Shown in pieces: positions 15,665 to 64,000 of a stretch of DNA of 64,000 nucleotides. The stretch covers positions 35,020 to 99,019 of the forward strand of contig JAAQTN010000016.1 in the NCBI GenBank assembly GCA_011742915.1, given 5' to 3'. Each line of letters opens with the position of its first letter. Within the stretch, counting starts at the first letter, position 1. Made by a program: the position numbers and the translations under genes. This DNA comes from Billgrantia desiderata. GTDB taxonomy: Bacteria; Pseudomonadota; Gammaproteobacteria; Pseudomonadales; Halomonadaceae. The notes beneath the pieces were generated by a model. The model was given only the letters and a program-made list of their open reading frames with translations, did no database searches and was not told the DNA's origin.

Positions 15665-17053
15665 ATGCGCTACATCAGTACCCGTGGGCAGGCGCCTGCG
15701 CTCTCTTTCGAAGAGGTCGTGCTGACCGGCATGGCCAGCGACGGCGGCCTCTACGTGCCGGAAACCATTCCGCAGCTCTCCCGTGAGGAGCTCGCCGGCA
15801 TGGCCGGACTCTCCTATGCCGAGGTCGCCTTCCGCGTGATGCGGCCGTTCGTCAACGGCGAGATCGACGACGAGACCTTCCGCGGCATCGTGCGCGACGC
15901 CTACGCCACCTTCAGTCACGACGCCGTGGTGCCGCTCAACCAGCTCGACGCCAACCACTTCCTGCTGGAGCTGTTCCACGGCCCGACGCTGGCCTTCAAG
16001 GACGTTGCCCTGCAGCTGCTGGGCCGTATCCTCGATCACTTCCTGGCCAAGCGCGGCGAGCGCGCGGTGATCATGGGCGCCACCTCCGGCGACACCGGTT
16101 CGGCGGCCATCGAAGGCTGTCGCCACTGCGACAACCTCGACATCTTCATCCTGCACCCGCACAACCGGGTCTCCGAGGTGCAGCGTCGGCAGATGACCTC
16201 GGTGCTGGCCGACAACGTCTTCAACATCGCCATCGAAGGCAACTTCGACGACGCCCAGGCGATGGTCAAGGCCAGCTTCGCCGACCAGGGCTTCCTCGGC
16301 GGCACCCGCCTGGTGGCGGTGAACTCGATCAACTGGGCGCGCATCATGGCCCAGATCGTCTACTACGTGGCCGCCGGCGTAGCGCTGGGTGCGCCACACC
16401 GGCTGGTCAGTTTCTGCGTGCCTTCGGCCAACTTCGGCAACGTCTTCGCCGGCTACATGGCCTACCGCATGGGGCTGCCGGTCAAGCAGTTCATCATCGC
16501 CACCAATGCCAACGACATTCTGCACCGCACCATCGCCGACAACGACTTCTCCAAGCAGGAGCTCAAGGCGACCCTGGCGCCCTCCATGGACATCGTTGTG
16601 TCGTCCAACTTCGAGCGCCTGCTGTTCGAGGCCTACGAGCGTGACGGCGCTGCCGTGGCTGCGCTGCTCGGGCGCTTCCAGTCCGAGCCGACGGCGCTGG
16701 CCGAGGCGCCGCTGGAGCGGCTGCGGGCGCTGTTCGCCAGCCATAGCGTCGACGATGCCACCATCCTCGAGGTGATCCGCGAGGCGCACCACCGTACCAA
16801 GGAGGTGCTCGACCCACACACGGCTACCGGTTATCGCGCCGCCGAGCGCGCCCGGGCCGATGCCGCCACACCGATGATCACCCTGGCCACGGCCCACCCG
16901 GCCAAGTTCGCCGAGGCGGTGGTCAAGGCGGGCTTCCCCGGTGTGCCGCTACCGCCGCACATGGACGACCTGCTGGAGCGCGAGGAGCGTTACGCCGTGC
17001 TGCCGGCGGAGCTGGCTAAGGTGCAGGCGTTCGTGGCCGAGAACCGGCGGTAA
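15665..17053 (+). CDS. thrC: Threonine synthase
   Basis: 462 residues. It converts O-phosphohomoserine to threonine with PLP. The Schiff-base lysine is Lys112 in PTLAFKDVALQLLG; the phosphate loop is ATSGDTGSAAIEG. The N-terminal MRYISTRGQAPALSFEEVVLTGMASDGGLYVPE is the typical opening. It forms an operon with hom. Family A element copy 1 begins about 37 nt after the stop. Confidence 0.96.
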   Translation: MRYISTRGQAPALSFEEVVLTGMASDGGLYVPETIPQLSREELAGMAGLSYAEVAFRVMRPFVNGEIDDETFRGIVRDAYATFSHDAVVPLNQLDANHFLLELFHGPTLAFKDVALQLLGRILDHFLAKRGERAVIMGATSGDTGSAAIEGCRHCDNLDIFILHPHNRVSEVQRRQMTSVLADNVFNIAIEGNFDDAQAMVKASFADQGFLGGTRLVAVNSINWARIMAQIVYYVAAGVALGAPHRLVSFCVPSANFGNVFAGYMAYRMGLPVKQFIIATNANDILHRTIADNDFSKQELKATLAPSMDIVVSSNFERLLFEAYERDGAAVAALLGRFQSEPTALAEAPLERLRALFASHSVDDATILEVIREAHHRTKEVLDPHTATGYRAAERARADAATPMITLATAHPAKFAEAVVKAGFPGVPLPPHMDDLLEREERYAVLPAELAKVQAFVAENRR

Positions 17054-17089
17054 ACACCTTCGTTGACCGTCGCTGGCCGGCTCGGAGCC

Positions 17090-17190
17090 GTGCCGGCGAC
17101 AGGTCTTCGAGGAGGCGCTGTGAACCCATCCCTGGGCGCTATATTTGCCATCCATGGCAAATAACCTCCTCTACGACCTGTCTCCGGCGC
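17090..17190 (+). repeat. Family A intergenic hairpin element, copy 1
   Basis: The conserved core, beginning CTGTGAACCC and ending TGGGCGCTA, is at 17118-17141. Directly after it, TATTTGCCAT (17042+100: 17142-17151) pairs with ATGGCAAATA (17154-17163). Outer arms GACAGGTCTTCGAGGAGG (ending 17115) and CCTCCTCTACGACCTGTC (17166-17183) pair with few mismatches. Other copies: 33589, 53672 and 62440. It fills the thrC-recJ gap. Confidence 0.85.
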
Positions 17191-17191
17191 T

Positions 17192-17272
17192 CCTCGCATC
17201 GAGGCTAGCCCGAGCGGTGGTCAGTGTCGGCGAAGATAGTCCCTGCGCCCCTCGCATCGGGACCAGCCCGAG
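17192..17272 (+). repeat. Two direct repeats of about 23 bp upstream of recJ
   Basis: The units at 17192-17214 and 17250-17272 share CCTCGCATCG and AGCCCGAG with a variable centre, 58 bp apart. They immediately follow the family A element. No function is assigned. Confidence 0.5.
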
Positions 17273-17332
17273 AGGCCGCGCAGAGATGCCCATGAGCCGG
17301 CCGCAAAACCCGTCATGCAACAGGAGCCACGC

Positions 17333-19138
17333 TTGGACGCGAACGCGCCGCCCGATCTGCACGCCCGACTCAAACCGCGGCTGCTGCTGCGCCCACGCAA
17401 CGAGGCACTCTACGCCCGCGCGCTCGCCGAAGGCCTGACCGAGCTGCAGGCCCGGGTGCTGGCCGGTCGCCTGACCGACTACGAGGGCGAACTGGCACCG
17501 CTGACCCGGCCCAGCCTGCGCTATCTCGAACATCCGGAACGCCTGGCCGACGGTCGCCGCGCCGCCGAGCGCATCGCCACCGCCGTGGCCGAGGGCGAGC
17601 ACATCGGCATCCTCACCGACTACGACGTCGACGGCATCACCTCCCACGTGGTCATCCGGCGCACCCTGGTGGAGCTCTTCGGTGTGCCGGAGTCGCGTCT
17701 GCACAGCCTGATCGGCCATCGTATCCACGACGGCTACGGCATCAGCCTGCCGCTGGTGGAGCGCACGCTCAGGCTCTCGCCGCGGCCTACGCTGGTGATC
17801 ACCGCCGACTGCGGCAGCTCCGACGAGCCGCGCATCGCCCGGCTCAAGGCGGAAGGCATCGACGTGGTGGTGAGCGACCACCACGCCCTGCCGGTGGAAG
17901 GGCCGCCGCCCTCCGCTCATGCCGTGGTCAACCCGACCCGTGACGACTGCCAGTACCCCGACCGCACCATTGCCGGCTGCATGGTGGCCTGGCTGGTGAT
18001 GTCGCTGACGCGCAGCGTGCTGGTGGAGTGGGGCGTGATTCCCGATGCTACGCCCAAGCTCTCCGCCTGGCTCTCCTACGTGGCGCTGGGCACCGTGGCC
18101 GACTGCGTGTCGCTGGGGGCGAGCCCGGCCAATCGCGCCGTGGTCAGCCATGGTCTGACGTTGATCAACCGCATGGAGGCCGCCTGCTGGCGTGCCATGG
18201 CGACCCGCCTGGGCGAAGACAGCGTGCCGTTCTCCGCCGAGACCCTGGCCTTCCAGATGGGGCCGCGCATCAACGCCCGCTCGCGCCTCGACGACCCCTA
18301 CGCGGCGCTGCACTTCATGCTCGCGGGGGACGACGCCACGGCGATACGCCACCTGCAGACGCTGGACGACGACAACCAGTCGCGCAAGGCGATCGAGGCG
18401 GCAATGGTCGAAGAGGCCCGCGGCCTGGCCCTGGCGCAGCTCGAGGCCGACCGGCCGGCGCTGATCGTCTACCTCGAAAGCGGCCATCCGGGCGTGCAGG
18501 GTATCGTCGCTTCGCGTCTGGTGCAGGCCTTCGGCCGGCCTGCGCTGGTGCTGACGCCGGCGGCGGCGCCCGGCATGCTCACCGGCTCGGGGCGCTCCAT
18601 CGAGGCGCTGCACCTGCGCAATGCGCTGCAGCGCGCCCATGAACTGGCCCCCGAAGCGCTGCCGCGCTTCGGCGGGCATCGCGGCGCGGCCGGGGTCGGT
18701 GTACCGGTGGAGCAGCTGGAAATGTTCCGGTCGGCCCTGCTGCAAGCCGTGAGCGAGCAGTTGGGAGAGGCCGAGCTGTTCCCCCACGTGCTGACCGACG
18801 GAGCGCTCAACCCCGAGCAGCTGCAGCTGGCCACCCTGCTCGAGCTGGAGGCGCTGGGGCCCTACGGGCGCGAGTTCGACGCGCCGCTGTTCGAAGGGGA
18901 GTTCCTGATCGAGTCGATACGTGCCGTGGGCGCCGAGGGCAACCACCTGTCGATGCACCTGTCATCGGGCGCGACGAGCCTCAAGGCGATCTGGTTTCGC
19001 GCCCTCACGCCGGGAGAACTGCCCGCCTTCGGTCTGGGCGACCGGCTGCGCTGCGCCTACCGGCTCAATCGCAACCGCTGGCGGGGCCAGGAGTCGCTGC
19101 AGCTCATGATCGAGTATGCCGAGCCGTTGCACGGCTGA
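17333..19138 (+). CDS. recJ: Single-stranded-DNA-specific exonuclease RecJ
   Basis: About 601 residues from TTG at 17333 (AGGAG six nt upstream); an ATG at 17315 lacks a ribosome-binding site. RecJ degrades ssDNA 5' to 3' in RecF-pathway recombination and repair. DHH phosphoesterase motifs: TDYDVDG (95-101), ADCG (158-161) and DHH (182-184), then DHHA1 with SGRSIEALHLRNAL and GGHRGAAG, and a C-terminal OB fold. In E. coli prfB follows directly; here about 11.5 kb of other genes intervene. Confidence 0.92.
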   Translation: MDANAPPDLHARLKPRLLLRPRNEALYARALAEGLTELQARVLAGRLTDYEGELAPLTRPSLRYLEHPERLADGRRAAERIATAVAEGEHIGILTDYDVDGITSHVVIRRTLVELFGVPESRLHSLIGHRIHDGYGISLPLVERTLRLSPRPTLVITADCGSSDEPRIARLKAEGIDVVVSDHHALPVEGPPPSAHAVVNPTRDDCQYPDRTIAGCMVAWLVMSLTRSVLVEWGVIPDATPKLSAWLSYVALGTVADCVSLGASPANRAVVSHGLTLINRMEAACWRAMATRLGEDSVPFSAETLAFQMGPRINARSRLDDPYAALHFMLAGDDATAIRHLQTLDDDNQSRKAIEAAMVEEARGLALAQLEADRPALIVYLESGHPGVQGIVASRLVQAFGRPALVLTPAAAPGMLTGSGRSIEALHLRNALQRAHELAPEALPRFGGHRGAAGVGVPVEQLEMFRSALLQAVSEQLGEAELFPHVLTDGALNPEQLQLATLLELEALGPYGREFDAPLFEGEFLIESIRAVGAEGNHLSMHLSSGATSLKAIWFRALTPGELPAFGLGDRLRCAYRLNRNRWRGQESLQLMIEYAEPLHG

Positions 19139-28827: not shown

Positions 28828-30414
28828 TCACTCTTCGAAGGAGACCCAGCGCGAGCGGTGGATGTCCTCGATGTTGTTCTCCCAGCCTTGCAGGGCGGGA
28901 TTCACCAGGTTGCGCGAGACGTAATAGAAGATCGGCAGGGTGGCACTGTCTTCGAGAGCCAGGCGTTCGGCCTCGGCCATGATCTCGCCGCGGCGGTCGA
29001 GATCCTGGGTCTCGGCGGCCTCGCGCATCAGCGCATCGAACTCCTCGTTGCTGTAGGCGCCGTAGTTGTTGGCCACGCCGCTCTCCAGCAGGCTGAGGAA
29101 ATTCTGGGCGTCGTTGTAGTCGCCGATCCACCCGGCGCGTCCTACGTCGAAGTCGCCCTGCCGCAGGTCGGCGTAGTGCACGGCGATTTCCGAGTTGAAC
29201 AGGTCGACCTCGACGCCCAGCGGCTCCCACATGGCGCCGATGGCGATGGCCACCTGGCGGTGATCCTCGCTGGTGTTGTAGCGCAGGCGCAGCTGCAGGG
29301 GATTGTCGGGGCCATAGCCGGCCTCGCTCATCAGTTCGCGGGCGCGCTCCAGGCGCTCCTCCTGAGACATGTCGACGAACGGGACCATCGCCGGCTCGTA
29401 GTGGCTGACACCGGGCGGGACGAAGCTGTAGGCCGGCTCCTCGCCGGTGCCCAGGATCTGCTCGGTGATCACCTCGCGGCGCACGGCCAGGCTCAATGCC
29501 TTGCGCACGCGCGGGTCCGCCGTAGGGTGGCCCTCGCGGGAGTTGAGCACGTAGTAGTAGATGCCGAGGAAGGGCGCCGTGTGGGTCGCGTCGGGCAGGT
29601 TGTCACGCAGCCAGCGATACTGCTGGGTCGGGAACTCCCGCGCCACGTCGATCTCGCCGGCACGAAAGCGGTTGAGCGCCGTGTTGCGCTCCTCGATGGG
29701 GAAGTAGATCACCTGGTCGAGTGCGACATTGTCGGCATCATGGAAGTGCTCGTTGCGGATCGCCTCGATACGAGTCTGCGATTGCCAGCGTTGGAGCTTG
29801 AAGGGACCGTTGGAGACCATGCTGCCGGGTCGCGACCAGCGGTCGCCGTGCTCCTCCACCACGTGCCTGGGCACCGGGTAGGCGGTGTAGTGGGAGAGTT
29901 GGTCGAGGAAATAGGGGGTCGAGCGTTCCAGGGTGATCTGCAGGGTATGATCGTCCAGGGCCTCGATGCCCAGCGTCTCTGGCTCGGCCTCGCCGGTGTA
30001 GATCGCTTCGGCATTCTGCACCGGATAGAGCAGGTAGGCATAGTCGGCGGCCGTCGCCGGGGTAAGGATACGCCGGAAGGCGAAGACGAAGTCTTCGGCG
30101 GTCACCGGCTCGCCGTCGGACCAGCGAGCGTCCTGACGAAGTTGAAACGTATACACGGTGCCGTCTTCGGAGATCTCCCACGACTCGGCCACGCCGGGAA
30201 TGCGCTCGCCGTCGGCGGCTTCGGTGATCAGGCCTTCGAAGAGGTCGCCTACCACGTCGTTCTCCCAGGTGCCGCTGATCTTGTGAGGGTCGAGGGAGGC
30301 GGGCTCGCCCATGATGGCGATGCGCAGCGTGTCGGCCTGCAGCGGCAGGGCGGTCAGGCTTGCCGTCAGCGTCAGGACGGGAAGGGACAGAGGGAAGCGT
30401 AGCTTGGACATCAT
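28828..30414 (-). CDS. oppA: Periplasmic oligopeptide-binding protein OppA/MppA-like
   Basis: 528 residues with a signal peptide (cleavage near LQA, residue ~27; no lipobox Cys, so soluble). The SBP_bac_5 fold is evident from GEPASLDPHKISGTWENDVVGDLFEGL, GVAESWEISEDGTVYTFQLRQDARWSDGEPVTAEDFVFAFRR in successive stretches, and NSREGHPTADPRVRKALSLAVRRE. It captures peptides for OppBC-DF. GGAG lies 10 nt before the ATG. Promoter elements are not obvious, but a direct repeat lies ~90 bp upstream. Confidence 0.94.
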   Translation of the reverse strand: MMSKLRFPLSLPVLTLTASLTALPLQADTLRIAIMGEPASLDPHKISGTWENDVVGDLFEGLITEAADGERIPGVAESWEISEDGTVYTFQLRQDARWSDGEPVTAEDFVFAFRRILTPATAADYAYLLYPVQNAEAIYTGEAEPETLGIEALDDHTLQITLERSTPYFLDQLSHYTAYPVPRHVVEEHGDRWSRPGSMVSNGPFKLQRWQSQTRIEAIRNEHFHDADNVALDQVIYFPIEERNTALNRFRAGEIDVAREFPTQQYRWLRDNLPDATHTAPFLGIYYYVLNSREGHPTADPRVRKALSLAVRREVITEQILGTGEEPAYSFVPPGVSHYEPAMVPFVDMSQEERLERARELMSEAGYGPDNPLQLRLRYNTSEDHRQVAIAIGAMWEPLGVEVDLFNSEIAVHYADLRQGDFDVGRAGWIGDYNDAQNFLSLLESGVANNYGAYSNEEFDALMREAAETQDLDRRGEIMAEAERLALEDSATLPIFYYVSRNLVNPALQGWENNIEDIHRSRWVSFEE

Positions 30415-31894: not shown

Positions 31895-33445
31895 ATGGCC
31901 AACCAGAGCTCCTCCCCGGAAAGCCCCCAGACCGACGAGAACCGTCTGATCGCCGAGCGTCGGGCCAAGCTGGCGGCACGCCGCGAGCGCGCCGCCGCCA
32001 CCGGCGGCAGCGCCTTCCCCAACGACTTCCGCCGCGACAGCCTGGCGGCCGAGCTGATCGCCGAGCTGGGCGAGAAGGACAAGGCCGAGCTGGAGGCGCT
32101 CAGCCGCCCGGCGGCGGTGGCCGGGCGCATCATGCGCAAGCGCGGTCCGTTCCTGGTGATCCAGGATCCCAGCGCCACGATCCAGCTCTACGTCGACAAG
32201 CAGGGCCTGCCGGAAGCGACGCTCGAGGACATCAAGGGCTGGGACATCGGCGACATCGTCGCGGCCCGCGGCCCGGTGCACAAGTCGGGCAAGGGCGACC
32301 TCTACGTGATGATGGAAGAGGCCAGGCTGCTGACCAAGAGCCTGCGTCCGCTGCCGGACAAGTTCCACGGCCTGACCGACATGGAGGCGCGCTACCGCCA
32401 GCGCTACGTCGACCTGATCATGAACCCCGACTCGCGAAAGGTGTTCGAGACCCGCGCCGGGGTGATCAGCGCCATGCGCCGCTTCTTCGAGGAGCGCGGC
32501 TTCATGGAGGTGGAAACCCCTATGCTGCAGCCGATTCCCGGCGGTGCCACCGCGCGGCCCTTCATCACCCACCACAATGCGCTGGACATCGACATGTACC
32601 TGCGCATCGCACCGGAGCTCTACCTCAAGCGCCTGGTGGTGGGCGGCTTCGAGAAGGTCTTCGAGATCAATCGGAACTTCCGTAACGAAGGTCTCTCGAC
32701 TCGCCACAACCCCGAGTTCACCATGGTCGAGTTCTATCAGGCACATGCCAACCATCATGACCTGATGGATCTCACCGAGGAGATGCTGCGCACCATCGCG
32801 CTCAAGGTGCTGGGCACCACTACCGTGGTCAACACCGTGCGCAACGCCGAGGGCGAGGTGCTCGAGAGCTACGAGTACGACTTCGGCAAGCCGCTCAAGC
32901 GCATCAGCGTGTTCGACTCGATTCTCGAGTTCAACCCGGACATCCACGCCGAGGCGCTGGCCGACGAGGCCGCCGCGCGGCAGATCGCCGAGCGGCTGGA
33001 CATCGACGTCAAGGACGGCTGGGGCCTGGGCAAGATCCAGATCGAGATCTTCGAGAAGACCGTCGAGCATCGCCTCAAGGACCCGACCTTCATCACCGAT
33101 TACCCCACCGAGGTGAGCCCGCTGGCACGGCGCAACGACAGCAACCCGTTCGTCACCGAGCGCTTCGAGTTCTTCGTCGGCGGGCGCGAGATCGCCAACG
33201 GCTTCTCGGAGCTCAACGACGCCGAGGACCAGGCCGAGCGCTTCCGCGCCCAGGCGGCGGAGAAGGAGGCCGGCGACCTCGAGGCGATGTACTACGACGC
33301 CGACTACGTGCGCGCACTGGAGTACGGCTTGCCGCCCACCGCCGGTGAGGGCATCGGCATCGACCGCCTGGTCATGCTGTTCACCGACAGCGCCTCGATT
33401 CGGGATGTGTTGCTGTTCCCGGCCATGCGCCCTGAGGTTGAATGA
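31895..33445 (+). CDS. lysS: Lysine--tRNA ligase, class II
   Basis: 516 residues from the ATG at 31895; a longer open frame upstream overlaps prfB and is not coding. The N-terminal OB-fold anticodon domain (~65-170, including [17 protein letters not shown]) is followed by the class II core: motif 1 in [22 protein letters not shown], motif 2 [14 protein letters not shown], motif 3 [29 protein letters not shown] precedes the start. The first family B element begins right after the stop. Confidence 0.96.
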
Positions 33446-33560
33446 AGGGGCTACGCTTCGGCCAGGCGTTGTTGCTCAGGAGTTCGCTTTGCTCATGTAC
33501 AAACTCGTACACTCCGCCAGCGAACACCTGAGCGCCTAGCCTGGCCTTTGCTCGCCTCCT
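33446..33560 (+). repeat. Family B 3'-flanking hairpin element, copy 2
   Basis: Arms GCTCAGGAGTTCGCT (33474-33488) and AGCGAACACCTGAGC (33519-33533) pair with one mismatch around the core TGCTCATGTAC ... GTACACTCCGC. Here the inner stem is GTAC/GTAC instead of TTTAC/GTAAA. The 3' flank GCGCCTAGCCTGGCCTTTG matches the other copies. It starts immediately after the lysS stop. Confidence 0.85.
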
Positions 33561-33588
33561 TCCGCTGGGAGCGGTGGCTGAGCGAGGG

Positions 33589-33690
33589 GCGCCGGGGGAG
33601 GCCGAAGAGGAGGTTTTTTGCCATGGATGGCAAAAGTAGCGCCCAGGGATGGGTTCACAGCGCCTCCTCGAAGGCCTGCCCCCGGTAAAG
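33589..33690 (-). repeat. Family A intergenic hairpin element, copy 2 (reverse orientation)
   Basis: The core is at 33637-33660 on the minus strand. The inner stem TTTTGCCAT (33616-33624) pairs with ATGGCAAAA (33627-33635). The outer arms (GAAGAGGAGG side and CCTCCTCGAAGGCC side) also pair. It lies back to back with family B copy 2. Confidence 0.85.
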
Positions 33691-33724
33691 CCCCGGGCTA
33701 CTTGGTGCCGCCCCGGCGGAAGTA

Positions 33725-33754
33725 TTGGTAAGCGGCGGCGCTAGCGCCCATAAT
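33725..33754 (+). promoter_or_regulatory. Promoter of the small acidic protein gene
   Basis: TTGGTA (33725-33730) and CATAAT (33749-33754) are separated by 18 bp and lie ~30 bp before the start codon. It restarts transcription after the two repeat elements. Confidence 0.6.
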
Positions 33755-33784
33755 GATCACCGTTTCGACGTCGAGGAGACCGCG

Positions 33785-34171
33785 ATGAAACTGCTCAACC
33801 GCTCCGCCCTGAGCGTCAGGCCGACCCGGCACTTCGTGGACTGGATCAATGCGCTGGAACCCACCATGGGGGAGGACGACCTCACCCTGGAGGACGTCGA
33901 ACGTGAAAGCACGGTCTATCTGATTCCCGAGATGGACACCCCGGAGGCCCTGGAGGCCTTCGTGCGCGAGCGCTACCTCGAGATCCTCGAGACCGAGCTG
34001 CGCGCCTGGGAGGAGGACGAGCGGCAGTGGCCCGAGGCTCTCGACTGGGCGCTGTTCCAGCGCTTCCTGCAGGTCGAGCATAGCTATCTCGCCATCGACC
34101 TGGACGACGAAACGGCGCTGGAAATCTCCGAGGTCGACGATTCACTCCTGCTGGAAACCGACCAGGACTGA
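33785..34171 (+). CDS. Conserved acidic protein of unknown function
   Basis: 128 residues from the ATG at 33785, with GAGGAG six nt upstream. It begins MKLLNRSALSVRPTRHFVDW and is strongly acidic (dense Glu/Asp, e.g. EDDLTLEDVERE and LDDETALEISEVDD). No signal peptide, membrane segment or cysteine is seen. It resembles a short protein found next to various genes in pseudomonads whose function I do not know. It has its own promoter and is followed by a degenerate family B element, so it looks monocistronic. Confidence 0.8.
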   Translation: MKLLNRSALSVRPTRHFVDWINALEPTMGEDDLTLEDVERESTVYLIPEMDTPEALEAFVRERYLEILETELRAWEEDERQWPEALDWALFQRFLQVEHSYLAIDLDDETALEISEVDDSLLLETDQD

Positions 34172-48647: not shown

Positions 48648-48772
48648 AGAAACCGGCTGCGCTCGGCCATGCGGCGTTGAACCTTGCTTCGCAATGCTCA
48701 TTTAGCCCACTAAACTCCGCTTGCTCAGCAAGGTTCGCCTAGCCTGGCCTTCGCTCGCTCGGTTCTCTGGCT
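48648..48772 (+). repeat. Family B hairpin element, copy 3
   Basis: Arms GAACCTTGCT (48679-48688) and AGCAAGGTTC (48727-48736) enclose TGCTCATTTAG ... CTAAACTCCGC with inner stem TTTAG/CTAAA. Outer GAGAAACCGGCTGCGCTCGG pairs partly with CTCGCTCGGTTCTC. Flank TTCGCCTAGCCTGGCCTTCG is as in other copies. Confidence 0.85.
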
Positions 48773-52525: not shown

Positions 52526-53641
52526 ATGAAGATCGCCGTGCCGAAGGAAATCAAGAACCATGAGTATCGCGTCGCCCTGACTCCCACCGGAGCGCGGGAG
52601 CTGGCGACGCGTGGCCATTCGGTGACCGTTCAGGTGGGGGCCGGGGAGGGAGCGGGCTTCGCCGATACCGACTATGAAGCGGCAGGCGCCCGGCTCGAGG
52701 CCGACGTCGATACCCTGTGGAGCGAGGCCGAGCTGATCCTCAAGGTCAAGGAGCCGCAACCGGAAGAGGTGGCGCGGCTCTCCCGCGGCCAGACCCTGTT
52801 CACCTACCTGCACCTGGCGGCCGAGGAGAAGCTGACCCGCGGCCTGATGGAGAGCGGGGCCACCTGCATCGCCTACGAGACCGTGACCGACCGCCAGGGC
52901 GGCCTGCCGCTGCTGGCGCCGATGAGCACCGTGGCCGGTCGCATGGCCATTCAGGCCGGCGCTCACAGCCTGGAAAAGGCCCAGGGCGGCTCCGGCGTGC
53001 TGCTGCCCGGCGTGCCCGGCGTGGCGCCGGGCAGGGTGACCGTGATCGGCGGCGGCGTGGTGGGCGAGAACGCCGCGCGCATGGCATTGGGCCTGGGTGC
53101 CGAGGTCAGCGTGCTGGACAAGTCGATTGCGCGCCTCGAAGTGCTCGACGACCGCTACCAGGGGCGTATGAAGACCATCTTCTCCACCGCCGACGCCATC
53201 GACGAGGCGGTGCGCGAGAGCGACCTGATCGTGGGTGCCGTGCTGATTCCCGGCGCCGCCGCGCCCAAGCTGATCACTCGTGCCATGCTCGCCGACATGA
53301 AGCCCGGCAGCGTGCTGGTGGACGTCGCCATCGACCAGGGCGGCTGCTTCGAGACCAGCAAGCCCACTACCCATGCCGAACCGACCTACGTGGTCGACGG
53401 TATCGTCCACTACTGCGTGGCCAACATGCCGGGTGCGGTGGCGCGTACCTCGACCCAGGCGCTGACCAACGCCACCCTGCCGTTCGTCATCGCCCTGGCC
53501 GACAAGGGCTGGAAGCGGGCGCTGGCCGACGATGCCCACTTCCTGCCCGGGCTCAACGTCCACGACGGACAGATCACCTACCGCGCCGTGGCCGAGGCTT
53601 TCGGCCTGGAATCTGTCGATCCCGCCACTCTGGTGCGATGA
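52526..53641 (+). CDS. ald: Alanine dehydrogenase
   Basis: 371 residues. [20 protein letters not shown] with catalytic Arg15, Lys75 region (KVKEPQPEE), His96 in YLHLAAEE, and the NAD motif [17 protein letters not shown]. It interconverts alanine and pyruvate plus ammonia. GGAGG precedes the start. The 183-bp upstream region is AT-rich with a hairpin GCGTGAT/ATCACGC (52344-52366). Confidence 0.95.
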
Positions 53642-53671
53642 AGACTGAGGTATGCGAGGGCGTCGAGGTAG

Positions 53672-53773
53672 GGTCCGGGGACAGGTCGAAGCGGAGATCA
53701 TTCTTCATGGATGAAGAATGTAGCGCCCAGGGATGGGTTCACAGCGTCTCCGCGTAGTGCCTGTCGCCGGGAC
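53672..53773 (-). repeat. Family A hairpin element, copy 3 (reverse orientation)
   Basis: Core at 53721-53744 on the minus strand. The inner stem is ATTCTTCAT (53700-53708) with ATGAAGAAT (53711-53719): a sequence different from the other copies but fully paired. The outer arms GGTCCGGGGACAGG and CCTGTCGCCGGGACC also pair. It lies between ald and trpS. Confidence 0.85.
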
Positions 53774-53900
53774 CCTTCCGGTCGTAGCAACGTCTCACGG
53801 CCATGAGGAATCTCTTTTCGGGGTGGTCTCTGCCAGGTCGCCTTGACCGCCCCCTCGCGTTACCATAGCGGGCATTTCCGACAAGCAGAGTCCGCTTTCC

Positions 53901-54926
53901 ATGAGTGCAGCTTCCCAGAAGACACGCGTTCTCACCGGTATCACCACCACCGGTACCCCGCACCTCGGCAACTATGTCGGCGCCATCAAGCCCGCCATCG
54001 CCGCGAGCCAGGACCCGAGCGTGCAGTCCTACTACTTTCTCGCCGACCTGCATGCACTGATCAAGTGCCAGGACCCGCAGCGGGTGCAGGAGTCGCGCCT
54101 GGAGATCGCCGCCACCTGGCTGGCGTTGGGGCTCGATACCGACAACGCCATCTTCTACCGCCAGTCGGACATTCCCGAGATCCCCGAGCTGACCTGGATG
54201 CTCTCCTGCGTGTGCGCCAAGGGCCTGATGAATCGCGCCCACGCCTACAAGGCGGCGGTGGCCGAGAACGAGGCCGCCGGCAACCAGGACCCCGACAAGG
54301 GCATCACCATGGGCCTGTTCGGCTACCCGGTGCTGATGGCCGCCGACATCCTCATGTTCAACGCTCACAAGGTGCCGGTGGGACGTGACCAGATCCAGCA
54401 CATCGAGATGGCCCGGGATATCGGCGGGCGCTACAACCACCTGTTCAAGGGCGAGTACTTCACCCTGCCCGAGGCGGTGGTCGACGACGAGGTGGCGGTG
54501 CTCAACGGCCTCGACGGACGCAAGATGTCCAAGAGCTACAACAACACCATCCCGCTGTTCGTCTCCGAGAAGAAGCTGCTCAAGCTGGTGCGCAAGATCA
54601 AGACCAACTCGCTTGAGCCCGGCGAGCCCAAGGACCCGGAAGGCTGCACTCTGTTCCAGATCTACTCCGCCTTCGCCAGCCGCGAGGAGCGCGAGGCGAT
54701 GCGTGCCGAGTACGCCAACGGCATCGGCTGGGGCGAGGTCAAGAACCGCCTGTTCGAGCAGCTCGACACTCAGCTGCGCGAACCGCGGGAGCGCTACCAG
54801 GCGCTGATGGAGGATCCGGGGCACATCGAGAACGTGCTGCAGAAGGGCGCCGAACGGGCCCGCGCCGAGGCCGCACCGTTCATGGACAAGCTGCGCCAGG
54901 CCGTGGGCCTGGGACGCTTCGTCTAG
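53901..54926 (+). CDS. trpS: Tryptophan--tRNA ligase
   Basis: 341 residues, class I. HIGH-like motif TGTPHLGNYVGA, KMSKS in GRKMSKSYNN, and PVGRDQIQHIEMARDI. It matches the bacterial TrpRS length. Followed by a 13-bp tandem repeat and a terminator. Confidence 0.96.
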   Translation: MSAASQKTRVLTGITTTGTPHLGNYVGAIKPAIAASQDPSVQSYYFLADLHALIKCQDPQRVQESRLEIAATWLALGLDTDNAIFYRQSDIPEIPELTWMLSCVCAKGLMNRAHAYKAAVAENEAAGNQDPDKGITMGLFGYPVLMAADILMFNAHKVPVGRDQIQHIEMARDIGGRYNHLFKGEYFTLPEAVVDDEVAVLNGLDGRKMSKSYNNTIPLFVSEKKLLKLVRKIKTNSLEPGEPKDPEGCTLFQIYSAFASREEREAMRAEYANGIGWGEVKNRLFEQLDTQLREPRERYQALMEDPGHIENVLQKGAERARAEAAPFMDKLRQAVGLGRFV

Positions 54927-61300: not shown

Positions 61301-62407
<1,107 letters not shown>

Positions 62408-62439
62408 CAAACCTGGAAGCTGCTTGGCTATGAGCCCGC

Positions 62440-62545
62440 GGCTTCCTGGCGACAGGCCCGCTCGGGGGCGCTGTGAACCCATCCCTGGGCGCTACCGATG
62501 CCATCCATGGCATCGGACCCCCTCTCAGGCCTGCCCCCAGCGCCG
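62440..62545 (+). repeat. Family A hairpin element, copy 4
   Basis: Core at 62471-62494; inner stem CCGATGCCAT (62495-62504) with ATGGCATCGG (62507-62516). Outer arms GGCGACAGGCC and GGCCTGCCCCC pair partly. It lies between trxB and slyX. Confidence 0.85.
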
Positions 62546-62580
62546 CTTGTGTTGGTGGCGTCAATCTCTGGCCAGGCGGG

Positions 62581-62850
62581 TCAATAGTGCGGCGGCACCT
62601 CATCCTGCGGTGACGGTGCCGCCATCTCCACTTCCTGCAGCGCCTGCTGTTGATCGCGCAGTTTCTCCTGCATCATCGCATTGATGCGCTCCAACTGGGC
62701 CAGGCGCCGCTCCTGGCCGGCGACGGCCTGATCCAGCGTGTCGAGCCAGTGCTCCTGGTAGGCGATACGGCTTTCCAGCGCCTCCAGGCGTGCAGCGAGC
62801 GCATTCTCGGGGCTCATGCTAGAATCGTCGCGCTGCGTGTCGCTGTTCAT
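62581..62850 (-). CDS. slyX: SlyX family protein
   Basis: About 89 residues from the ATG at 62850 (GAAGG upstream); a start at 62895 would give 104. A coiled coil with the family order LEALESRIAYQEHWLDTLDQAV...LERINAMMQEKL and the C-terminal PPHY. Function unknown; named from its position near slyD in E. coli, which is not conserved here. Confidence 0.88.
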   Translation of the reverse strand: MNSDTQRDDSSMSPENALAARLEALESRIAYQEHWLDTLDQAVAGQERRLAQLERINAMMQEKLRDQQQALQEVEMAAPSPQDEVPPHY

Positions 62851-63408: not shown

Positions 63409-63538
63409 ACGAAGCGCCTGCGCTCGACCAGGCGTTGTTGGAATTGCAGCGCGAGATGCTCATTTACTAAAGTAAACTCCGCTCTCTCGCTGCAATCCCG
63501 CCTAGCCTGACCTTCGCTCGCCAGCTTTCGCAAGCTGG
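63409..63538 (+). repeat. Family B hairpin element, copy 4
   Basis: Arms ATTGCAGC (63443-63450) and GCTGCAAT (63489-63496) enclose TGCTCATTTACTAAAGTAAA with CTCCGC following. The flank CCCGCCTAGCCTGACC matches other copies. It begins directly after the CSD gene stop; a short stem CCAGCTT/AAGCTGG ends it. Confidence 0.85.
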
Positions 63539-63551
63539 TCAGGCTTCAACA

Positions 63552-63592
63552 ACATCGCCCCGCATGTTTCGAACATGCGGGGCGATGTCGTT
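63552..63592 (+). terminator. Rho-independent terminator, target of the intron
   Basis: A perfect 17-bp stem (63552-63568 with 63572-63588, GCCCCGCATG / CATGCGGGGC centre) with a TCG tip is followed by CGTT (63589-63592), where the intron begins. Confidence 0.92.
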
Positions 63593-64000
63593 GTGCGCCA
63601 GGCATGGCGCGTAGCACCGATAGGTGCTGTTCCCGAGGGTGGTGCCTCGGGATGACTCGGGGGTGAAAGTCCCCTGCGGACCCTGATAGCGGGAACCGCT
63701 AGCCGAACAGCAAGGGTGTCCGCCGCGAGGCGGAATCTGAAGGAAGCTGAAGGCAAACTCCCGGCCTGACGAACAGGAATCGCATATGAGGCAGCCACAT
63801 CTGGGTGAGAGGGCAATGACACTCGAAGCCCCATAGCTATCCGGAAGATGTGGAGGTAAATGCGGCGGGTAGATGGGAGGAAGGTCGCGCGTCTTACCCT
63901 GGGAGGTCTGGTGGTCTGCCACGGTGCTACCGGCGTCGAGAGGCGACGGGATGGACCACCAGACGTCAGCAGAGGCCATAGTAAGTGCCGGTTCACCGCG
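63593..64000 (+). mobile_element. Group II intron, 5' part (continues past window)
   Basis: GTGCGCC at 63593 matches the GUGYG 5' end of group II introns. The following 400 nt has bacterial group II domain-I hallmarks: GGGTGAAAGTCCCC, CTGAAGGAAGCTGAAGGCAAAC and GAATCGCATATGAGGC. The arms GTCTGGTGGTC (63906-63916) and GACCACCAGAC (63954-63964) form a perfect 11-bp stem. The reverse transcriptase gene and 3' end lie beyond the window. It starts 4 nt behind the hairpin, as terminator-targeting class IIC introns do. Confidence 0.85.
63951..64000 (+). CDS. Possible start of the intron-encoded reverse transcriptase (partial)
   Basis: From an ATG at 63951 the frame stays open to the edge: MDHQTSAEAIVSAGSP. 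The AGAGGCCATAGTA segment is the kind that opens group II reverse transcriptase frames. Only 16 codons are visible, so the call is weak. Confidence 0.35.
   Translation, partial: MDHQTSAEAIVSAGSP

Follow-up and report, generated by a model that had tools for sequence, protein, structure and literature searches.

A dispersed intergenic repeat of Billgrantia desiderata and its relatives probably encodes an RNA with two candidate CsrA/RsmA-binding hairpins

What is the palindromic repeat that recurs in the intergenic spacers of Billgrantia desiderata: a REP-type element, or a structured RNA? Both were offered in the original prediction, which described four copies of one defined unit in the 64,000-nucleotide stretch of DNA analysed here (the window), with a size of about 105 bp (101-106), a fixed core, GACAGG-like blocks in the arms and no open frame. 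The four copies do lie where they were placed, share the 24-nt CTGTGAACCCATCCCTGGGCGCTA and run two in each orientation, with CTGTGAACCC at 17118 (+), 62471 (+), 33651-33660 (-) and 53735-53744 (-). All four are intergenic according to a codon-usage gene caller and are flanked by housekeeping genes (Table 1). The absence of an open frame is true of called genes, although mechanical ORFs of at least 100 aa overlap the copies. The unit itself is larger than first drawn: the covariance model R1 gives about 120 bp, because the outermost stem extends past the ends previously assigned. The GACAGG-like blocks form a covarying stem of the element. The core is identical in the four window copies but varies in the family, with TAC/GTA in place of CCC/GGG in some copies.

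Table 1. Copies of the element in the window, their loops and their neighbouring genes
Feature	Position	Strand	Remarks
Copy 1	17080..17200	minus (ANGGAN strand)	span of model R1
Copy 1, neighbours	threonine synthase gene 15665-17053; recJ-like gene 17315-19138	plus; plus	ANGGAN strand antisense to both
Copy 1, P4 loop	17128..17133	minus	AGGGAU, closing CCC/GGG
Copy 1, P5 loop	17150..17155	minus	AUGGAU
Copy 1, identical 24-nt core of the original prediction	17118..17141	plus	P4 and its flanks
Copy 2	33579..33698	plus (ANGGAN strand)	span of model R1
Copy 2, neighbours	class II tRNA-synthetase (D, K and N type) gene 31895-33445 upstream; gene without Pfam match 33725-34171 downstream	plus; plus	ANGGAN strand sense to both
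Copy 2, P5 loop	33623..33628	plus	AUGGAU
Copy 2, P4 loop	33645..33650	plus	AGGGAU
Copy 3	53662..53783	plus (ANGGAN strand)	span of model R1
Copy 3, neighbours	alanine dehydrogenase/PNT gene 52526-53641; tRNA synthetase class I (W and Y) gene 53901-54926	plus; plus	ANGGAN strand sense to both
Copy 3, P5 loop	53707..53712	plus	AUGGAU
Copy 3, P4 loop	53729..53734	plus	AGGGAU
Copy 4	62434..62553	minus (ANGGAN strand)	span of model R1
Copy 4, neighbours	pyridine-nucleotide-disulphide oxidoreductase gene 61394-62407; slyX-like gene 62581-62850	plus; minus	convergent; ANGGAN strand would read from the slyX side
Copy 4, P4 loop	62481..62486	minus	AGGGAU
Copy 4, P5 loop	62503..62508	minus	AUGGAU

Chance occurrence of the core is ruled out. 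Nor does anything observed point to an internal piece of a known IS, the window copies being set among housekeeping genes. The short string CTGTGAACCC is by itself unsurprising (4 found at up to one mismatch against 3.97 expected); TGTGAACCCATCCCTGGG, at up to two mismatches, occurs at 29 places in the 4.89-Mb genome and its reversed control at none, with one of the 29 (L027) being a chance match that lacks the rest of the element. Four is the number of copies in the window by both covariance models, but the genome as a whole carries at least 35 (R1, built from 25 copies, E<1e-10) in addition to weaker long forms, a lower bound because 150 of 4327 candidates were scored. Within the window, the extra matches of R1 are the opposite strands of the same four copies, and the broader model R2 adds a fifth match at 29929 with E=4.5. 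The window also holds a second dispersed repeat, CGCCTAGCCTGRCCTTYGCTCGC (family D18), at 33533-33555, 48736-48758 and 63499-63521; these copies are 91-96% alike, and those at 33533 and 63499 adjoin other palindrome-like sequence. At 63719-64000 (+), a group II intron runs off the window end (Rfam RF02001, 148.3 bits; RF01998, 42 bits). It is preceded at about 63554-63586 by a GC-rich inverted repeat, a setting typical of group IIC introns.

The meaning of the core lies on its reverse complement, not on the strand first read. On that strand, here called the ANGGAN strand, the order from 5' to 3' is an outer stem (P1), a stem formed by the GACAGG blocks (P2) and a third stem (P3, GAGGAGG/CCTCCTC and variants), inside which stand two hairpins, P5 and then P4. 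The P5 loop reads AUGGAU or AGGGAU, with variants, and P4 reads CCC-AGGGAN-GGG. Folded as RNA, the window copies take this shape. Among 119 distinct Halomonadaceae copies (alignment A5), double-sided changes were found in 31 of 36 pairs, and the covariation score was 0.387 as against 0.163 for shuffled alignments and 0.08-0.09 with slid partners; these copies had been picked for at least 6 of 8 standard pairs in P5 and at least 5 of 7 in P3, G.U allowed, a choice that raises the apparent pairing and could tilt the balance in those two stems from A.C towards G.U, while P1 and P2 were unselected. Accordingly, both the single defined unit and the structured RNA of the original prediction gain from the covariation and from the one-sided G.U excess described below, and a structured RNA encoded on the reverse complement of the core is very probable.

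The element is not uniform in length. In a long form the P5 loop takes in about 80 bp of inserted sequence with additional hairpins, and short and long forms have been exchanged at two orthologous sites whose flanks are nearly the same (L021/L242 and L019/L240). In distant copies the best-matching stretch of the arms measures 29 nt in the median, with 93.5% complementarity inside a copy, and the arms of different copies are hardly alike. Several such copies, L297, L299, L301, L346 and L347 among them, have arms of about 25-30 bp or more that are near-perfectly complementary and dissimilar from one copy to another.

Which strand is selected can be read from the imperfect pairs, since a signal read as DNA should be strand-symmetric. 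On the ANGGAN strand of the 119 copies, G.U outnumbers A.C by 115 to 37, a count that excludes one P4 pair at which G.U is almost constant (118 of 119). The excess holds in 60 sequences, is reversed in 9 and is level in 50; by pair position, it is 20 against 5. It persists in P1 and P2 only, the stems not used in choosing copies (99:30). Two distant sets give 27:6 and 40:12, with 34 and 28 other mismatches, in a comparison of each arm with its partner, without folding, that covered 78 of 93 copies; the remainder lacked two CANGGANG motifs at the right distance. As related copies are not independent, p-values on these counts serve only as a guide. The excess is one-sided and indicates that selection on pairing acts on the ANGGAN strand as RNA. 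A DNA-only palindrome, suggested by the few G.U pairs in a first 25-copy table, was abandoned once the other strand, with 119 copies, gave more G.U than A.C.

Two other indicators favour the same strand. The RF01731 matches in this genome, described below, fall on it, and in Halomonadaceae it is the transcribed strand in 86 of 118 tandem copies (p=7e-7 if copies are independent). The 32 antisense copies, window copy 1 included, speak against a sense-RNA reading, as do the copy-1 locus, with ANGGAN antisense in 12 of 21 genomes, and the Ysr224 matches described below, which lie on the other strand. This bias is absent outside the family (sense 15, antisense 12), and a second distant set gave sense 6 and antisense 15 with a cruder gene caller, by which 15 of 49 loci fell inside a called ORF. 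Folding energy was rejected as strand evidence: it is lower on the ANGGAN strand in 160 of 185 copies, but likewise in 82 of 100 shuffles, and is thus confounded by composition. In the window it is lower on that strand in all four copies, with z-scores of -4.3 to -6.6 there and -1.9 to -6.9 on the other strand, which scores equally well or better in three of four; only copy 4 has the better z-score on the ANGGAN strand.

The loops on this strand follow one pattern. Among 185 short forms from Halomonadaceae, the P5 loop is ANGGAN in 181 and its closing pair is C-G in all 185, although these loop letters were not fixed by the pattern searches that supplied nearly all copies (a few came through R1); the two N positions are variable, with covariation in the stem beneath them. 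The P4 loop is ANGGAN in 233 of 234 copies, most of its letters being fixed by the search pattern, and a subfamily of 11 of the 234 keeps this loop on UAC/GUA in place of CCC/GGG. Both loops are ANGGAN in 180 of the 185 short forms, and in these the two GGA motifs lie 19 nt apart; the remaining five lack one loop. In the class-wide set the spacing is about 20 nt. The combination is rare elsewhere: when hairpins of six pairs and a six-nucleotide loop are compared, C-ANGGAN-G occurs in 72 of 156 inside the family, and outside it in 2 of 273 hairpins between genes and 0 of 988 within genes.

Copies of other shape tend to retain a loop of this kind. In 49 non-short copies, the insert that displaces the P5 loop carries a new same-strand ANGGAN hairpin in 28, a shifted P5 keeps the loop in 9, the loop is on the other strand in 5, and 7 have none by the rule used. 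A different P5 insert, CCGCC-ATCCAT-GGCGG, with the loop on the opposite strand, is found in L098, L139, L167, L175 and L197. Further afield, 44 copies from the order (48 loci, four of them without a recognisable core) have ANGGAN in P4 in 43 and in P5 in 36, and of 49 copies from the class, 40 have at least two ANGGAN hairpins and 9 have one; these counts are supportive rather than independent, because the models that found the copies were trained on the loops. An ANGGAN hairpin also occurs outside the element, as CCCAC-AGGGAT-GTGGG in the spacer of genome G027 that is orthologous to that of copy 3 (L267).

This loop has a published counterpart. High-affinity binding by RsmE/CsrA calls for an ANGGAX hexaloop placed directly on a stem (PMC4005645), CsrA selects the SELEX site RUACARGGAUGU, and one dimer bridges sites 10-63 nt apart (PMC7652899). 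The element has such hexaloops directly on its stems, closed by C-G, and agrees with the published rule in how long the loop is, which pair closes it and where the letter is free; the 19-nt spacing falls inside the bridging range, and the UAC/GUA form of P4, UAC-AGGGAN-GUA, is close to the SELEX site. Thus, the two loops are a predicted doubled high-affinity site of the CsrA/RsmA type. Against this, most CsrA SELEX hairpins have four or fewer contiguous pairs (PMC7652899), and very stable stems may disfavour CsrA.

A single csrA gene is present in this genome. Across the class, csrA was matched in 56 of 60 element-bearing genomes and 216 of 261 others (p=0.046), and among genomes at least 90% complete in 48 of 49 and 196 of 227 (p=0.024; matched by hand), a weak signal because csrA is nearly universal. 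Four of the 60 carry the element without a csrA match, one of them (G426) 98% complete. Judged from the loops, CsrA/RsmA is a probable partner of the element RNA.

At up to one mismatch, the core occurs in 33 of 37 genomes of the genus and in 2 of 21 from other families. Longer-core matches, among those listed, come from genera of the Halomonadaceae such as Halomonas, Billgrantia, Vreelandella, Salinicola, Chromohalobacter, Modicisalibacter and Onishia. R1 finds the element in 51 of 194 genomes of the order, and R2 in 60 of 321 genomes and 54 of 243 genera of the class, with at most 10 candidates scored per genome. Spread by phages or plasmids was considered and set aside: no phage record matched the core, but one entry of a plasmid collection did so at 8 places (Halomonas sp. 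PA16-9, 1.83 Mb), and one viral contig also matched.

The nearest described relative is the TwoAYGGAY RNA (RF01731, clan CL00106), which likewise sets a pair of AYGGAY-type hairpin loops on a shared stem; the second loop letter of the element is often G, and not only Y. No Rfam family matched the window copies at threshold. At E<=10, RF01731 has three matches in this genome (150 of 184 candidates scored), all on element copies and on the ANGGAN strand, the best three copies scoring 22.7, 19.2 and 18.5 bits and so not reaching the threshold of 43; a distant copy, L310, passes with 43.5 bits, also on the ANGGAN strand. TwoAYGGAY is typed cis-regulatory in Rfam, whereas a 2010 table lists it as probably an RNA, probably not cis-regulatory, from human gut, Gammaproteobacteria and Clostridiales (PMC2864571). 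It has been predicted, without a test, to bind CsrA (PMC4333381), and, unlike the element, it is not described as a dispersed repeat in the literature examined. The same Rfam clan, CL00106, includes CsrB/RsmB and other Csr/Rsm sponge RNAs (RF00018), whose GGA hairpins titrate CsrA (PMC7652899, PMC4333381). CsrB is one dedicated gene with many sites, whereas the element has two sites per unit and dozens of units.

Other families resemble the element in part. The Yersinia sRNA Ysr224 (RF02770) shares a two-hairpin layout in its alignment, but window copy 1 (21.5 bits) and the distant copies L311 (29 bits) and L316 (25.8 bits) all score under its threshold of 70, and in the three of three copies where it appears the match is on the strand opposite to ANGGAN. 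YPAL/RU-2, also from Yersinia, is a dispersed intergenic palindromic repeat at or near dyad symmetry that is reported to be co-expressed with upstream genes and to have moved recently (PMC2229807); it differs from the element in its length of about 168 bp and its target-site duplications of 3-26 bp. Matches of the long arms to microRNA families were discounted as generic hairpin matches. Literature searches on the core strings, CCATCCATGG, Halomonas REP, CsrA repeats, YPAL/Ysr224 and TwoAYGGAY, with subscription papers mostly outside reach, gave no such repeats described as CsrA sites. The CsrA idea for an RNA of the TwoAYGGAY kind is therefore already in print; what appears new, as far as the literature searched shows, is its carrier, a dispersed intergenic repeat that turns over, stands in dozens of copies in Halomonadaceae, is widespread in the class and bears strand-specific evidence of selection as RNA.

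The position of the copies relative to genes bears on what such an RNA might do. Of 164 Halomonadaceae copies examined for context, two inside called genes and six at locus edges were left out. In tandem contexts, copies start a median of about 26 nt past the upstream stop, with ends approximated from the core. Convergent gaps hold 28 of 156 copies as against 14 of 176 other gaps, and divergent gaps 10 of 156 as against 64 of 176, the baseline being limited to gaps of 150 bp or more, a cut that may over-represent divergent ones. A 3'-UTR stability or termination hairpin would suit this pattern: the long stem would block 3' exonucleases or stop transcription from either side, with little importance for the GGA loops. 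The stable fold on both strands also favours such a hairpin, as do the long, almost perfectly complementary arms of distant families, whose sequence differs from copy to copy. It would, however, leave unexplained why conservation in P5 peaks at the loop A, GG and A and the closing C-G while the stem letters change, and why the GGA spacing is fixed; as the principal account of the element, it is unlikely.

The copies turn over. A recognisable element stands at the copy-1 locus in 21 of 30 genus genomes (23 with two diverged copies, L211 and L216), the core strand running along the genes, with ANGGAN antisense, in 12 of the 21 and against them in 9. At the copy-3 locus it is present in 9 of 26 genomes, with ANGGAN sense in 7, and four further loci showed only one flanking gene; the locus counts are underestimates, as the search pattern misses a long form in L262 as well as L211 and L216. 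A comparison of 13 pairs with the near relative G009 often showed an element of another orientation, subfamily or form in the shared spacer. Since orthologous spacers hold differing elements, copies have been gained, lost and replaced over evolutionary time. One pair (own C52 versus G009/G008) looks like an in-place inversion, but replacement is the better reading there because arms and spacer also differ from G009. Apparent collapsed remnants, outer arms only, were seen by eye at L218, L222 and L210, beside intact elements within the same spacer, which suggests repeated insertion and deletion.

This turnover raises the case of non-autonomous, MITE-like mobile DNA whose hairpins would be recognised as DNA by some transposase or nuclease. 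The element is multi-copy and palindromic, is present or absent at orthologous sites, and occurs in both orientations and as different subfamilies in the same spacer. A DNA signal should nevertheless be symmetric, yet in three sets one strand shows more G.U than A.C; no clean insertion boundary or target-site duplication was found in the orthologous spacers compared, which are much rearranged, and a search of this genome with PF01797 gave no Y1 transposase. As the whole explanation MITE-like mobility is improbable, but it may be true of the element's spread, alongside an RNA function.

The lack of a Y1 gene also counts against the REP-type reading of the original prediction, under which a RAYT would drive a REP or REPIN element. 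GTAG REPs and REPINs are, like the element, palindromic, extragenic and repeated, and GTAG precedes P4 in most Halomonadaceae copies. The element, however, is far larger, has two different hairpins and does not conserve the GTAG, which in distant forms is mostly CGAGC or CAAGC. Y1 is also absent from 18 of 37 genus genomes, 10 of which hold 12-24 copies; genomes with and without Y1 average 16.7 and 11.9 copies, not a significant difference (p=0.20), and four Y1 loci, one of them from the genus, have no element core within about 2.3-3.4 kb. A term search of the main text of PMC3733652 gave no mention of Halomonas or Chromohalobacter. The route of spread in this genome is thus not RAYT, and a RAYT-driven element is very improbable as an account of the family. 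An RNA site for some other GGA-loop-binding protein is scarcely credible either: selection on the loops would fit such a protein, but in the length of the loop, in its closing pair and in the positions left free, the consensus coincides with what is published for RsmE/CsrA.

Taken together, the element is best read as a dispersed RNA-coding element of the TwoAYGGAY type that carries a two-pronged CsrA/RsmA site, a reading to which we give a probability of about 0.6. Comparison of the copies shows that the ANGGAN strand forms a long covarying stem, P1 to P3, on which stand P5 and P4; both hairpins end in ANGGAN hexaloops on a C-G closing pair, and together the two loops would offer one CsrA/RsmA dimer a ready-made two-pronged site. 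In Halomonadaceae, where the element lies just after stop codons, read-through from the upstream gene would make this RNA part of a 3' UTR or set it free as a 3'-derived RNA. CsrA held on the element would be kept from other mRNAs, making the copies a distributed sponge, and/or would alter the stability or the 3' end of the host mRNA. That the sponge, rather than effects on host mRNAs, is the main role is less likely than not. More broadly, it is conceivable, if doubtful, that a class-wide repeat family has turned the two-pronged CsrA site into a genetic element, with dozens of copies per genome after stop codons acting as a joint CsrA sponge whose strength is set by the transcription of the host genes.

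The literature examined treats interspersed palindromic repeats apart from Csr/Rsm sponge RNAs. In the present repeat family, the loop letters that are best conserved are those by which a global RNA-binding regulator recognises its sites. A modelling study of CsrA targets that includes Halomonas hydrothermalis considers 5' UTRs and early coding sequence (PMC12889724), and the present findings suggest that surveys confined to those regions would miss dozens of candidate sites. If CsrA does bind, the role of bacterial intergenic palindromic repeats would become testable for one family. If the distributed sponge is real, CsrA activity would be tied not only to dedicated Csr sRNA genes but also to read-through across the genome, and it would be rewired each time a copy is gained, lost or replaced.
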